The notes beneath the pieces were generated by a model, which was not told the DNA's origin, searched no databases, and saw only the letters and a list, made by a program, of their open reading frames with translations. A stretch of DNA of 64,000 nt from Alkaliphilus pronyensis (GTDB taxonomy: Bacteria > Bacillota > Clostridia > Peptostreptococcales > Natronincolaceae). The stretch is from assembly GCF_009017275.1 (NCBI RefSeq), contig NZ_WBZC01000002.1, positions 1-64,000 of the forward strand. Direction: 5' to 3'. Numbering within the stretch: the first letter of the stretch is position 1; every line of letters starts with the position of its first letter. Shown here piece by piece: positions 10,090 to 61,343 of this stretch. The position numbers and the translations under genes are program-made.

Positions 10090-10421
10090 AATTTTCCATT
10101 TGAATTTTTATTTAATGTTATAAGGACTAGGTATTTATCTTTTATCTTCTTTTATTTTGGTCTTTTGTTTAAACTTATTACTTATTCCATATTACTTATT
10201 ACTTGCTTTTATGGTTCAACATTCAACATTGCCTTTATAATTGTTTTCAATTTTCCATTTTTGTTTTTATGGTTTTATGTTTTTAACTCTTAACTCTTAA
10301 CTCTTAACTCTTAACTTTTAACTCTTAACTTTTAACTATTAATTTTTAATTTTCCCTATTACTTATTACTTATTACCTATTCCTTATTCCCTATTCCTTA
10401 TTCCCTATTCCATGTATTTCT
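10090..10421. repeat. Heptamer repeat tract between DUF5317 gene and secA
   Basis: A gene-free stretch of about 330 bases built from short repeats: CATTCAACATT near 10210, about seven tandem AACTCTT/AACTTTT units at 10287-10335, and ATTACTT/ATTCCCT units at 10360-10410. It abuts the 3' end of the DUF5317 gene. No open reading frame of note is seen. It is the same family as tracts near 41.9, 48.0 and 57.1 kb. Confidence 0.8.
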
Positions 10422-11240: not shown

Positions 11241-11777
11241 CTATTCAAACTCTGGTTCTATTAAACCGTAGTTACCATCCTTCCTTTTATATACTACATT
11301 TACCTCATCAGTTTCAGAGTTGGCATAAACGAAAAAGTTATGTCCAATCAATTCCATTTGTAGCACAGCTTCTTCTGAGCTCATTGGCTTAATGGCAAAG
11401 CGCTTTGTTTTAACAATTTTAGCCTCAAATGGACTATCCTCTTCCTTTAAGGCAGGAATATTTTCAAATCTTATAGTCTCGTATTTTATGTTTCGATTTT
11501 CAAGCTTTGTTTTATGTTTCCTTAGCTGTCTGGAAAGCTTATCTACAACCCTATCTATAGATGTATACATATCTTCTGTAGCTTCTTCTGCCCGTAATAA
11601 CGACCCATTAATTGGTATAGTCACCTCTAATATTTGTCTCTGTTTTTCAACAGATAAGGTTGCTTGTGCCTCAGCATCCTTATTAAAATACTTTTCGAGC
11701 TTAGAGATTTTAGCTTCAACTGAATTTCTTAGAGCATCTGTAACTTCTACATTTCTTCCACTTACTATGACTTTCAT
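11241..11777 (-). CDS. hpf: Long-form ribosome hibernation promoting factor
   Basis: 178 residues from the ATG at 11777, chosen for AAAGGAG 8 bases upstream over an in-frame start at 11795. The N-terminal ~100 residues are the S30AE ribosome-binding domain (MKVIVSGRNVEVTDALR, ISKLEKYF). The C-terminal ~60 residues (FAIKPMSSEEAVLQMELIGH, FVYANSETDEVNVVYKRKDG, YGLIEP) are the dimerisation domain that joins ribosomes into 100S particles. It is also called RaiA or YvyD. Its leader carries a 24-bp perfect palindrome, and further upstream lie a dispersed repeat, three DnaA boxes and a raiA-type noncoding RNA. Confidence 0.96.
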   Translation of the reverse strand: MKVIVSGRNVEVTDALRNSVEAKISKLEKYFNKDAEAQATLSVEKQRQILEVTIPINGSLLRAEEATEDMYTSIDRVVDKLSRQLRKHKTKLENRNIKYETIRFENIPALKEEDSPFEAKIVKTKRFAIKPMSSEEAVLQMELIGHNFFVYANSETDEVNVVYKRKDGNYGLIEPEFE

Positions 11778-11829: not shown

Positions 11830-11949
11830 AGCTGTGGCTTAAATTAGCTAAATATATAATTGTAAATATGTTATCTTTATAATTACCCTAATTTAAAAAT
11901 ATAAAACAGCAAGTACACTATTTTTTTTGACTATATGCTTTTCTCTCAG

Positions 11950-12063
11950 AGGCGTTACTAACACTCTCGCTTCTTAAGGGGGAGATAGGCGCCGCCAAGC
12001 TAGAAAGTAAGCGGAACTAGAGTTCAGGTGGAGTTTAAATCCATCTGAACTAAGTTTTCTTTA
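11950..12063 (+). repeat. Dispersed structured repeat, copy 1
   Basis: First of four ~120-nt copies. Shared blocks in order: GGCGTTACTAACACT, TTAAGGGGGAGATA, GCCGCCAAGCTAGAAAGTAAG, GAACTAG, a long hairpin with arms GTTCAGGTGGA/TCCATCTGAAC, then CTAAGTTTTCTTTA. Outer GGCG can pair with CGCC. A degenerate partial hairpin in the opposite orientation follows at 12105-12147. It lies in the spacer between hpf and the DnaA-box cluster. Confidence 0.8.
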
Positions 12064-12207
12064 ATTAGTATATTCATTCTTTGTAACTACCATGATAAAC
12101 ATTACTTAGTTCAAAAGGAGTTTTTACTCCATCTTTGCTTAGTTAACTATAGGATAAAATGATTAGACTCATACTTTATTATAGTTATTAGTTTTCATTT
12201 GGGAACT

Positions 12208-12280
12208 TGTGGATAACTTTGTTGGCTGTGAATATGTTAGTAGTCACGTCTGTGGATAATGTTAATAAGCCTGTTGATAA
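12208..12280 (+). promoter_or_regulatory. Cluster of three DnaA boxes
   Basis: TGTGGATAA at 12208 and 12251 and TGTTGATAA at 12272 are complements of DnaA boxes TTATCCACA and TTATCAACA. All have the same orientation, with start-to-start spacings of 43 and 21 bases (about four and two helix turns). They lie in the 5' region of hpf, with no dnaA or dnaN gene in the window, so this is not evidence for oriC. A titration site or DnaA-regulated promoter are alternatives. Confidence 0.65.
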
Positions 12281-12420
12281 CTTATTTTACATGGACAAGG
12301 GGTGTGTATATTATGTGTATAAAAATGGACAAACTTACTAATAAATATATTTACCCTTATATTGAAAATGATAAACATTATTAGTTGAATAAGCGTAAAT
12401 TATCATTAATTTAGTTAATT

Positions 12421-12664
12421 AAAAAAAGCCCTTGACAAAGTCAAAAGCTTTTATTAAATGTACTTGAAGCTGACCTGGTTTTTTACCCCACACTCGCCTG
12501 CTGGAGGGTTCGCTAAGGATTACTTTCACTACTACCCCTCTCGGCTTTACCGGCAGGTCTTACTTCTAAGCCGCACCATGATCAATAGTTATTTTAACTA
12601 TCTTACGTGGGTCCTTTTGCCTGCGACTGGCATGGACTTTCAACCACAGACCTTCAATAGTACC
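12421..12664 (-). ncRNA. raiA-type structured noncoding RNA
   Basis: About 240 nt, clearly GC-richer than the spacer around it, with no good reading frame on the minus strand. Many self-complementary parts are visible: TAGTTAAAATAACTA, CGGCTT/AAGCCG and several conserved-looking purine motifs (GTGAAAGTAATCC, AGCGAACCCTCCAGCAGG). It has its own promoter at 12670-12698 and ends in an 11-bp terminator stem (12426-12450, two G-U pairs) followed by seven T. The raiA RNA class is known to lie upstream of raiA/hpf genes in Firmicutes; position, size and architecture fit. Assignment rests on recall of the class and on context, not on a covariance-model hit. Confidence 0.75.
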
Positions 12665-12669
12665 TTTGT

Positions 12670-12698
12670 ATTATATCTTATTTACCTCTTCTTATCAA
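12670..12698 (-). promoter_or_regulatory. Sigma-A promoter of the raiA-type RNA
   Basis: On the minus strand TTGATA (12693-12698), 17 bases, then TATAAT (12670-12675). The -35 lies inside the last codons of the fliT-like gene. The expected start is near 12663. Confidence 0.75.
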
Positions 12699-13170
12699 TA
12701 AGGATAGAGGGTGTTTCCACATATTTTCTGTTATAGGAATTTATTACCTTTTTTCCCGTTTTTATATTTTTTAGCTGTGCTTTTAACTCATTCATATTGC
12801 TATTAGCCATTTCCATGTTTTCCTTGTCCAATTGGCTAATATCTTTAGTTACATTAACTATTTCATTAACAGTATCCTTTAATTGCTTAAAGCCTTTAAC
12901 AGGTTCTTCTGTACATTCTTCAAAAGAATCTATTTTTAGTAGTTTTTTTATAGCCTCATAATTGGTTATAAAATCATGATCAAGCTGATTAACAATATCA
13001 ATTAAGCTTTGCTTTTCTTCAATTATTTGATTAAGTAGATTAATCCCCTGATCTTCTTTGTTCGTTAATGCTTCTTTTTGAGCTATTGTTAAAGACAAAA
13101 TTTGCTTCATTATATTAAGCTTATGATTACATATATTTTGGAGCTCTATCACAATTTTTTCAGGCCTCAT
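12682..13170 (-). CDS. fliT: FliT/FlgN-type flagellar chaperone
   Basis: 162 residues, entirely helical and charged, without membrane segments. It lies 4 bases downstream of fliS, where B. subtilis has fliT. The N-terminal half (LNIMKQILSLTIAQKEAL, ILNQIIEEKQSLIDIVNQLD in character) resembles FlgN/FliT chaperones that hold filament-cap or hook-junction proteins before export. The symbol is given mainly on gene order; by sequence it reads as a generic FlgN-like protein. Its last codons overlap the promoter of the downstream noncoding RNA. Confidence 0.7.
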   Translation of the reverse strand: MRPEKIVIELQNICNHKLNIMKQILSLTIAQKEALTNKEDQGINLLNQIIEEKQSLIDIVNQLDHDFITNYEAIKKLLKIDSFEECTEEPVKGFKQLKDTVNEIVNVTKDISQLDKENMEMANSNMNELKAQLKNIKTGKKVINSYNRKYVETPSILIDKKR

Positions 13171-41639: not shown

Positions 41640-42048
41640 TAGTATTTTAAAGCAATGAGTAATTTTAAAAGCAATGAGTAATTAGTAATGAGCAATGAGT
41701 AATGGAAAAGCTGAAAAGCAATGGAAACGTAATGAGTAATTAGTTAAGGGGCATAGCTTATATTAAGCTTGCCCCTTACATGCTGCCTGTTAACTTTCAA
41801 TTATGTTTTTAAGATATTAAGGTTTTTGTTTTCGTCTTTTCATTCAACATTCAACATTGCCTTTGTTCTTGTCTTTCCAACTTTCCAACTTTCCAACTTT
41901 TAACCTTTAGTTTGTCTTCTTGTTTTCCACTTTCAATTTTCAATTATGTCTTCTTGTTTTTCATTTTTCATTTTTCACTCTTCACTCTTCACTTTTCACT
42001 TTTCACTTTTCACTTTTAACTTTTAACTTTTCATTAGTGTTTTATTCC
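41640..42048. repeat. Repeat-rich spacer between metK and recD2
   Basis: About 465 bases without a gene. From the recD2 side: GCAATGAGTAAT-type purine units (41652-41740), a strong hairpin at 41745-41778, a ~70-base unit (41798-41868) shared in inverted form with 47985-48066, three tandem ACTTTCCA units (41880-41898), then CATTTTTCACTCTTCAC and TTTTCACTTTTCAC units up to the metK stop. No promoter for recD2 could be picked confidently. Confidence 0.8.
41745..41778. other. Strong hairpin within the metK-recD2 spacer
   Basis: 9-bp outer stem TAAGGGGCA/TGCCCCTTA enclosing an inner AGCTTA/TAAGCT pairing. No long T-run follows on either strand. It may be the metK terminator or the centre of the surrounding repeat unit. 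Confidence 0.6.
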
Positions 42049-43239
42049 TTATTCCAACCCTGCTTCTTTTCTTAAAATCTCTGCCTTATCGGTTTTTTCC
42101 CATGGAAGGTCTACATCTGTTCTTCCAAAATGTCCATAGGCTGCTATTTGTCTGTATATAGGTCTTCTAAGGTCAAGATCTCTTATAATAGCTGCTGGTC
42201 TTAAGTCAAAGTGCTTTTTAACTAGCTCTTCAATAAGCTCTTCTTTAACCTTTGCAGTTCCAAAAGTTTCAACAAGTATGGAAACAGGCTGTGCTACACC
42301 TATAGCATATGCCAGCTCTATTTCGCACTTTTCAGCAAGACCTGCTGCAACAAGGTTTTTGGCTACATATCTAGCAGCATATGCAGCTGATCTATCAACT
42401 TTTGTTGGGTCTTTTCCTGAGAATGCTCCACCACCGTGACGAGCGTATCCTCCGTATGTATCAACAATTATTTTTCTGCCTGTAAGCCCTGCATCTCCCT
42501 GTGGTCCACCAATTACAAAACGGCCAGTTGGATTTATATAGTATTTTGTATTGTTATCAAGTAGGTTGTTTGGTACTATTTTATTAACAACATGCTGAAT
42601 TATATCTTTTTCGATAGCTTCCCTCTCAACTTCTGGGCCATGTTGAGTTGAAATAACAATGGTATCAATTCTAACTGGCTTGTCCCCATCATATTCAACA
42701 GTCACCTGTGTTTTACCATCTGGTCTTAAGTATGGAAGTGTACCATTTTTTCTAACATCTGATAATCTCTTAGCCAGTTTATGGGCTAATGAGATTGGCA
42801 GGGGCATCAATTCAGGAGTTTCATTACAAGCAAATCCAAACATAATTCCTTGATCTCCTGCACCAATAGATTCTAACTCATCTGCCACTTCGCCTCTTCT
42901 ACTTTCAAGTGCTTCATCAACCCCCATAGCAATATCAGGTGATTGCTCGTCTATTGCTGTTAAGACTGCACAGGTATCACAATCAAATCCGTATTTAGCT
43001 CTTGTATAGCCAATTTCTTCAATTGTTTTTCTAACCACCTTTGGAATGTCAACGTAACACTCAGTAGTAATTTCTCCAGCAACTAAAACCAAGCCTGTAG
43101 TAACACTTGTTTCACAAGCAACTCTAGCCTTTGGATCCTTTTCAAATATTGCATCTAATACAGCATCTGATATTTGGTCACAGATTTTATCTGGATGTCC
43201 CTCTGTTACTGATTCTGACGTAAATAATCTTTTAGACAT
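42049..43239 (-). CDS. metK: S-adenosylmethionine synthetase
   Basis: 396 residues, standard length. [20 protein letters not shown] (ATP/metal site), [20 protein letters not shown] and the phosphate loop [19 protein letters not shown] are all intact. It makes SAM from methionine and ATP in the cytoplasm. Expression is controlled by a SAM-I riboswitch with its own terminator upstream (43295-43438) and a clear sigma-A promoter. GGAGG precedes the ATG. Confidence 0.98.
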
Positions 43240-43294: not shown

Positions 43295-43438
43295 AAAAAA
43301 GCCTCTTCCCGCAAGAAGAGGCATATGTCAACATATGCTTACCTCATCTGTCAGAATCGGGATTCTGTAGGAATTAGCACCATACATAATATGGTTGCCG
43401 GGTATCATCGGGCCTATCCCTCCACCGCTCTTGATAAG
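43295..43438 (-). promoter_or_regulatory. SAM-I (S-box) riboswitch with terminator
   Basis: On the minus strand the aptamer (43438-43338) starts CTTATCAAGAGCGGTGGAGG and contains the conserved GATGATACCCGGCAACC and TGGTGCTAATTCC blocks, closing with GATGAGGTAAG, which pairs with the 5' end. A 9-bp terminator stem GCCTCTTC/GAAGAGGC with six T (43295-43322) follows, with a GCATATG/CATATGC helper stem between. When SAM binds, the terminator forms and metK transcription stops. Confidence 0.96.
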
Positions 43439-43472
43439 GCATCAAGATTTTTATTAACTTAATTACTAGTTA

Positions 43473-49644: not shown

Positions 49645-49735
49645 GATAGCCTTCTCCTCATTTGAATGTTTATTATTATAACCTAAGAAGCATAAGGATT
49701 TAATGCTTAATTTCAGCTATGAATCTATTATCTTA

Positions 49736-49855
49736 TCTCAGCGTCGTTACTAACACTCACGCTTTTTAAGGGGAGATAAGTGATGCCAAGCTAGAAAGTA
49801 AGCAAAGCTTCTGTTCAGTGGAGTATAAACTCCAGCTGAACTAAGGTTTCTTTAT
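49736..49855 (+). repeat. Dispersed structured repeat, copy 2
   Basis: Shares TCTCAGCGTCGTTACTAACA, TTTTTAAGGGGAGATAAGTG, GCCAAGCTAGAAAGTAAGC and the terminal hairpin GTTCAG.TGGAGT/ACTCCAGCTGAAC with CTAAGGTTTCTTTAT. GCGTC pairs with GATGC and CACT with AGTG. Its 3' edge overlaps the end of the alpha/beta hydrolase gene and supplies its last five codons and stop. Confidence 0.8.
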
Positions 49856-53565: not shown

Positions 53566-53688
53566 ATAAAGAAAACTTAGCTCAGATTGAGTTTTAACTC
53601 CACCTAAGCTCTAGCTGTACTTATTTGTAGCTTGACGGTACTTATCTCTGGCTTAAGGAAAGGGAATATTAGTAACACCACTGATACG
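53566..53688 (-). repeat. Dispersed structured repeat, copy 4
   Basis: The only copy on the minus strand. It keeps GTTACTAA, CTTAAG, GAGATAAGTACCGTCAAGCTA and the terminal hairpin, now with arms GCTTAGGTGGAGT/ACTCAATCTGAGC, then CTAAGTTTTCTTTAT. The change of GTTCAG/CTGAAC to GCTTAG/CTGAGC preserves pairing. It lies between mbl and the sigma-D promoter of flgF. Confidence 0.75.
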
Positions 53689-56989: not shown

Positions 56990-57212
56990 TTCAACATTCA
57001 ACATTTAACATTCAACATTTCTTTTTTTGTGTTTTTAATTATCCATTTTCAATTTTCCACTTTCAATTTTGTATTATCTTTTCACTTTTAACTCTTAATT
57101 ATTAAGTCTTAACTCTTAATTCTTAACTCTTAACTCTTAATTCTTAACTCTTAACTCTTAACTCTTAACTCTTAACTCTTAATTCTTAAGTCTTAACTCT
57201 TAACTCTTAATT
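56990..57212. repeat. Long AACTCTT heptamer array after spoIID
   Basis: CATTCAACATTTAACATTC at 56992, TTTTCAATTTTCCACTTTC, then about 17 tandem AACTCTT/AATTCTT/AAGTCTT units from 57080 to the spoIID stop codon at 57213. It is the longest heptamer array in the window. Unit variants are single-base changes, and no gene is present. Confidence 0.9.
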
Positions 57213-58217
57213 TTAATGATAGCTTTTGATTTTACTTAATTGGGTTCCTTGATAGTAATGCTGAAGAATATCTTGGTAGGATTCTCCCTTTTCTGCCATA
57301 CCATTTGCACCCCATTGACTCATTCCTACCCCGTGGCCATAGCCTCTTGTTGTAAACTCTATATTATCTCCGCTTGCTTTTATAGTGAAATCAGCTGATT
57401 TTAACTTAAATAATTCTCTTATTTCTCTACCTGTAAACTCTTCATTACCAATTGTCATTCTTTTTATGCTTCCACCACTTGATCTATCATGTATAGCTAT
57501 TTGTCCCTCTATATTTTTTGCTGTCAGTTTAATGCTTTTCCTATATACCTTCAATTGATTAACAAAATCATTAACTGGTACTACTTTTTTGTCAACAAGT
57601 ACTGGTGACCTTTCTTCATATGGACTGGATACACTTCTCAAGTAAGGTACAGCTCTTAAAAACACATCCTCTGAGTTTTCTGTTCTACCTCCACTTGTTG
57701 AATGATATAAGGGTTCAATTGGCTGCATATCATAGGTTATTATTACTCCCTTTGTAGATTCTACTGCTTCTTCTAATTTTGACCAATACTTATACATCCA
57801 TAGCCTTCCATGTCTTTCTCTAAGCTGATCTGTTGAGAGCCACTCCTGACAATGGGCATGATTAGTACAAAGTGGAGCACTGGGATGCTGTGTATTTCCA
57901 TTACTTTTAAAAATTTGTATTTTCCAAATAGCATATGTTCTTGCAGCAACAGCTTGCGCCTTTAGTGCCTCTAGTTCAAATGAAGCAGGCATCTCAGCTG
58001 CTATTACATTTAAAATATAATCTTCAAGCTGAAGCTCCATGTTTCTTTTTTCTATATGATTATATACTTTTATAGTTAAGTCGGATTCAACAGTTTCAGC
58101 CTCTTTATTGGATTTACTTATAATTGGAATGTTAATATCACAGCTAGTAATTATTAATATTGGTATAACTAGTGTAGAAATAATTAATGTTATAATACCA
58201 AAAAAAATACCCTTCAT
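57213..58217 (-). CDS. spoIID: Stage II sporulation protein D
   Basis: 334 residues. N-terminal membrane anchor (IFFGIITLIISTLVIPILII), then the SpoIID lytic transglycosylase domain: MELQLEDYILNVIAAEMPAS, EALKAQAVAARTYAIW (with the catalytic Glu region), IEPLYHSTSGGRTENSEDVF and RGYGHGVGMSQWGANGMAEK. It thins septal peptidoglycan during engulfment together with SpoIIM/SpoIIP. It follows murA by 85 bases, as in B. subtilis. Confidence 0.95.
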   Translation of the reverse strand: MKGIFFGIITLIISTLVIPILIITSCDINIPIISKSNKEAETVESDLTIKVYNHIEKRNMELQLEDYILNVIAAEMPASFELEALKAQAVAARTYAIWKIQIFKSNGNTQHPSAPLCTNHAHCQEWLSTDQLRERHGRLWMYKYWSKLEEAVESTKGVIITYDMQPIEPLYHSTSGGRTENSEDVFLRAVPYLRSVSSPYEERSPVLVDKKVVPVNDFVNQLKVYRKSIKLTAKNIEGQIAIHDRSSGGSIKRMTIGNEEFTGREIRELFKLKSADFTIKASGDNIEFTTRGYGHGVGMSQWGANGMAEKGESYQDILQHYYQGTQLSKIKSYH

Positions 58218-61185: not shown

Positions 61186-61222
61186 TTATCATCACCTCGA
61201 CATGTATCAATCTAATATTTAT

Positions 61223-61343
61223 ATCAGCGGCGTTACTAACACTTTCGCTTTTTAAGCGGGAGATAAGTGCCGCAAAGCTAGAAAGTTATCCGAACTAGAG
61301 TTCAGATGGAATAAAAACTACATCTAAACTAAGTTTTCTTTAT
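61223..61343 (+). repeat. Dispersed structured repeat, copy 3
   Basis: Best-folding copy: GCGGC pairs with GCCGC, CACTT with AAGTG, CGCTT with AAGCG in a nested stem, then AAAGCTAGAAAGT, GAACTAGAG, the terminal hairpin GTTCAGATGGA/TACATCTAAAC and CTAAGTTTTCTTTAT. It lies between the YueI-like gene (-) and the NusG-domain-II gene (+). Confidence 0.8.

Follow-up and report, generated by a model that had tools for sequence, protein, structure and literature searches.

Gene order at the locus

The window analyzed here, a 64,000-nucleotide stretch of the Alkaliphilus pronyensis genome, carries flagellar genes, a structured RNA, and hpf in succession on its minus strand. The gene at positions 12682 to 13170 had been taken for fliT in the initial annotation. 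It does occupy the fliT position behind fliD-fliS, but its Pfam match is to FlgN (PF05130, 50.2 bits), a family of flagellar chaperones related in type to FliT. It is followed by the conserved body of the raiA (ModT) RNA (12461 to 12660) and by hpf, which encodes the long form of the ribosome hibernation factor (11241 to 11777; PF02482 and PF16321). The upstream neighbors of raiA are thus FliD, FliS, and the FlgN-like gene here, whereas comFC was the commonest upstream neighbor in a published survey (PMC11706538). The order FliD-FliS-chaperone-raiA RNA-hpf was seen repeatedly among the relatives. The spacer between the RNA and hpf contains two elements absent from the initial annotation, namely a predicted DnaA-box cluster and a copy of an interspersed palindromic repeat.

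Identity and structure of the raiA RNA

The raiA (ModT) RNA is an abundant structured RNA known from thousands of bacteria. A raiA-type noncoding RNA had been proposed at this position, and the Rfam covariance model confirms it: RF03072 (raiA RNA) matches the minus strand from 12660 to 12461 over its full length (model positions 1 to 209 of 209), with 183.7 bits and an E value of 8e-47 (gathering cut-off, 101.3 bits), although the three outermost P1 pairs of the Rfam model are not formed here. The A. pronyensis genome holds a single copy, and the family was found in 46 of 60 relatives; a search for it in 14 control genomes gave no match in any of them. The block is indeed GC-richer than its surroundings, as had been noticed (47% GC versus 29% in the spacer downstream), and its many internal pairings amount to a fold that beats 200 of 200 dinucleotide shuffles (z = -3.3).

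To assess covariation, we took the structure as described in the literature and scored it across 29 aligned relatives, counting the Watson-Crick helices and the pseudoknot pk-1. Of 986 cells, 96.1% were paired, and 18 pairs had changed on both sides. None of 500 shuffles reached a covariation score as high, and versions with slid partners came nowhere close. Among the 29 sequences, pk-1, which joins the P3 loop to the pk-loop through seven base pairs (AGUCGCA with UGCGGCU), was 99.5% paired and included three compensated pairs; a cryo-EM structure of raiA RNA at 3.0 Å likewise gives seven pairs for pk-1 (PMC11751092). In the same alignment, the variable P5 and P7 (helices 5 and 8) were 91.7% and 100% paired, respectively, with changes on both sides. 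The RNA adopts the compact fold known for raiA: P1 closes it, the P3 loop and the pk-loop are joined by pk-1, P5 is variable, and P6-P8 make up a domain.

Promoter and terminator of the RNA gene

The RNA is flanked by its own putative transcription signals, both on the minus strand. A TTGATA-17-TATAAT promoter (12670 to 12698; 11 of 12 matches) predicts a start near 12663, and a sigma-A promoter is suggested both by this match and by its conservation: at least 10 of 12 positions match just upstream in 25 of 30 related loci, with 0.6 expected from shuffles. The initial annotation had placed this promoter inside the end of fliT; the two hexamers and their spacing stand, but only the -35 hexamer lies within the ORF, the -10 being past the stop codon. 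The 11-bp terminator hairpin with seven T described there is present at 12452 to 12424. Our tool extended the pairing to the A and T runs as well, for a count of 13. Of 30 relatives, 25 have a terminator in the 75 nt that follow the RNA, whereas a control window held one in just 1 of the 30.

Transcription would start from a housekeeping sigma-A type promoter, yield a transcript of ~240 nt, and stop at the intrinsic terminator. If the transcript is trimmed or terminated early, a form of ~205 nt might also arise, such as has been reported in C. difficile, C. perfringens, and P. sordellii. The raiA RNA has been described as having a single sigma-A start and isoforms of 215 and 260 nt (PMC11706538). 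With the raiA/ModT RNAs of C. difficile and C. acetobutylicum, the RNA shares its helices, pk-1, a sigma-A type promoter, a 3' terminator, and a unit of ~240 nt. It is an ordinary additional member of the known ModT family and provides a further clean example of it, with a tight promoter-RNA-terminator unit.

A free RNA or a leader of hpf

Two other accounts of the block were weighed. That it is an unrelated GC-rich spacer whose pairings arose by chance is contradicted by both the RF03072 score and the covariation, which refute this reading and leave it a negligible probability. The RNA might instead act in cis on hpf, as a leader or riboswitch that works through terminator read-through. Such a role would suit the position of hpf as the next gene downstream on the same strand, the presence of a same-strand hpf no more than 2.5 kb downstream in 29 of 46 raiA-bearing relatives, and the Rfam type label of RF03072 ("Cis-reg; riboswitch"). 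However, the RNA does not lie directly upstream of hpf: a terminator and 647 bases, counted from the terminator end to the hpf ATG at 11777, separate the two (~640 had been noted), and these bases hold the DnaA-box cluster, the repeat, and a candidate hpf promoter. Moreover, no hpf was found directly downstream in 17 of the 46 relatives, some of which perhaps reflect contig ends, and the published complementation acts in trans (PMC11706538). We therefore reject the leader reading as very improbable. By far the best reading, as the initial annotation had also judged, is a stand-alone RNA, given the conserved promoter and terminator, the 17 of 46 relatives in which no hpf was found up to 2.5 kb downstream on that strand, and the complementation in trans (PMC11706538).

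Considering these data jointly, we are highly confident that 12663 to 12424 on the minus strand constitutes a stand-alone raiA (ModT) RNA gene, a unit of ~240 nt that most likely acts in trans.

Expected function of the raiA RNA

We know of no established molecular activity for the raiA/ModT family; our best guess is that it serves as a ribonucleoprotein or a ligand-sensing scaffold. In C. difficile, raiA RNA complements in trans, is abundant in exponential phase, and affects c-di-GMP, sporulation, and growth transition (PMC11706538). By analogy, we infer a similar abundance, trans action, and phenotype in A. pronyensis, these properties being carried over from other species. The RNA would most likely be trans-acting, reach high levels in exponential phase, and time the entry into stationary phase and sporulation.

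A predicted DnaA-box cluster upstream of hpf

The spacer between the raiA RNA and hpf contains seven predicted DnaA boxes within 115 bp (12208 to 12322, minus strand), each differing from TTATCCACA at no more than two positions. They begin at 12322, 12311, 12280, 12268, 12259, 12235, and 12216. The window as a whole has nine exact TTATCMACA sites (2.0 expected), three of which lie at 12208 to 12280. At 12280 to 12251, the boxes form a tandem three-box core, TTATCAACA-N3-TTATTAACA-TTATCCACA, that is the sole such core in the genome.

The corresponding exact two-box core, TTATCAACA-N12-TTATCCACA, occurs 30 times in 29 of the 60 relatives, and a reversed control pattern had no match in these 60 genomes. 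Nearly all of the exact cores are upstream of hpf (28 of 30) and in the orientation of hpf (27 of 30), and 21 of 30 are within 1.6 kb of a raiA RNA. In six genomes (G003, G023, G034, G044, G045, and G058), the raiA RNA is missing or distant and the cluster is still found at hpf. The cluster is therefore not tied to the raiA gene, since it tracks hpf where the RNA is absent or far away, and we rejected the idea that it is part of the RNA gene. One exception, G051, has a one-mismatch core near the raiA RNA, with hpf 4.6 kb farther on. In some families, a second, inverted pair, TTTTCAACA...TTATCCACA, is located ~150 to 160 bases from the first core (G029, G034, G040, G051, and G058).

An assignment of the cluster to oriC was also rejected, because dnaA is on another contig here (C32, with the cluster on C12) and far from the cluster in finished relatives. 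No dnaA was found near the core matches in the other genomes. DnaA is predicted to bind at this hpf-linked cluster.

Spread and possible role of the hpf-linked cluster

We scanned for the core more widely, using one genome per species, and obtained at least 119 stretches, whose neighbors were clustered and given gene names by our own reading of the protein sequences. Among the matches listed, 44 adjoin tsaD/gcp, 33 are close to hpf, and 7 separate prmC from ywlC; Terrisporobacter, Anaerosolibacter, Alkaliphilus, Paenibacillus, and Lachnospiraceae are among the sources of the hpf-linked loci listed. Of 148 genomes drawn evenly from the class, only 12 have the exact core, and by coordinates it lies within ~1 kb upstream of hpf in 7 of these and ~3 kb upstream in 2 more. 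The core is therefore frequent in the present order and in a small number of other families, without being universal.

The DnaA binding regions of B. subtilis include gcp and ywlC (PMC4447404, Table 1), and the same three-box core as at hpf is found at gcp and ywlC clusters in other Bacillota. The presence of the core at these known DnaA regions supports reading it as a DnaA site. The B. subtilis clusters outside oriC (gcp, ywlC, yqeG/sda, ywcI, trmE, and yydA) are likewise dense, intergenic, and away from dnaA, and joint removal of six DnaA-box clusters in that species leads to early initiation (PMC5295017). The site upstream of hpf differs in location, hpf being outside the B. subtilis top-20 table (PMC4447404), and in that binding here is predicted. 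E. coli datA is similarly a DnaA-box cluster away from oriC, a likeness for which we claim no sequence relation. A second DnaA-box group of A. pronyensis was observed downstream of tsaD/gcp (L196; G000, contig C43:20942-21022), a location at which B. subtilis also has a known cluster.

Rather than titrating DnaA, the boxes might serve as a promoter element through which hpf transcription responds to DnaA and is thereby coupled to the initiation of replication. A candidate hpf promoter, TTCCCA-16-TATAAT (12178 to 12205, minus strand), starts 2 bases past the last box, which favors control of hpf, as does the orientation with hpf of 27 of the 30 exact cores in relatives. However, this promoter is a weak candidate, and Paenibacillus, Fermentithermobacillus, and Alkaliphilus serpentinus have the core in the opposite orientation to hpf. 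The distance from the core to hpf also varies (~180 to 600 bases). An orientation-free sink fits the inversions better, and together with the variable distance they favor a DnaA sink. We regard the promoter-element explanation as possible but rather doubtful and lean toward a DnaA sink, like the six B. subtilis clusters, over an hpf control element.

Tentatively, and at a little under an even chance, we suggest that a conserved extra-origin DnaA-box cluster before hpf couples replication initiation to ribosome hibernation, whether by titration or by control of hpf. Equally tentative is the scope of this coupling, which may extend over this order of Clostridia and some other Bacillota, in a region that often carries raiA/ModT too. 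The cluster is a newer and less expected result than the raiA RNA. We found no report of an extra-origin DnaA site near hpf in the openly licensed literature, and such sites appear to be little studied in Clostridia. The hpf-linked cluster offers a connection, open to experimental test, between the control of replication and ribosome hibernation in these bacteria.

An interspersed repeat and other elements of the window

An Rfam search of the spacer outside the raiA RNA, repeat included, returned nothing up to E = 1, and the phage records searched gave no match. The palindromic repeat in the spacer (~125 bp; 11940 to 12064, plus strand) belongs to a set of about 40 strong genomic copies (at least 41 strong matches, itself included, and probably more), and further copies in the window are located at 49720 to 49854, 61218 to 61342, and 53567 to 53684 (the last on the minus strand). 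One full copy is a neighbor of a Y1 transposase gene (L215), and another such gene has the initial 23 bases of the repeat beside it; these two adjacencies are insufficient to assign the source of the repeat. It is plausible, though unproven, that the repeat is a non-autonomous mobile element.

Elsewhere in the window, low-complexity arrays of 7-base units resembling TTAACTC or TTCACTT occur at 1 to 206, 10269 to 10399, 41888 to 42062, and 57037 to 57260, and a SAM riboswitch (RF00162, 86.3 bits) is found on the minus strand at 43341 to 43440.
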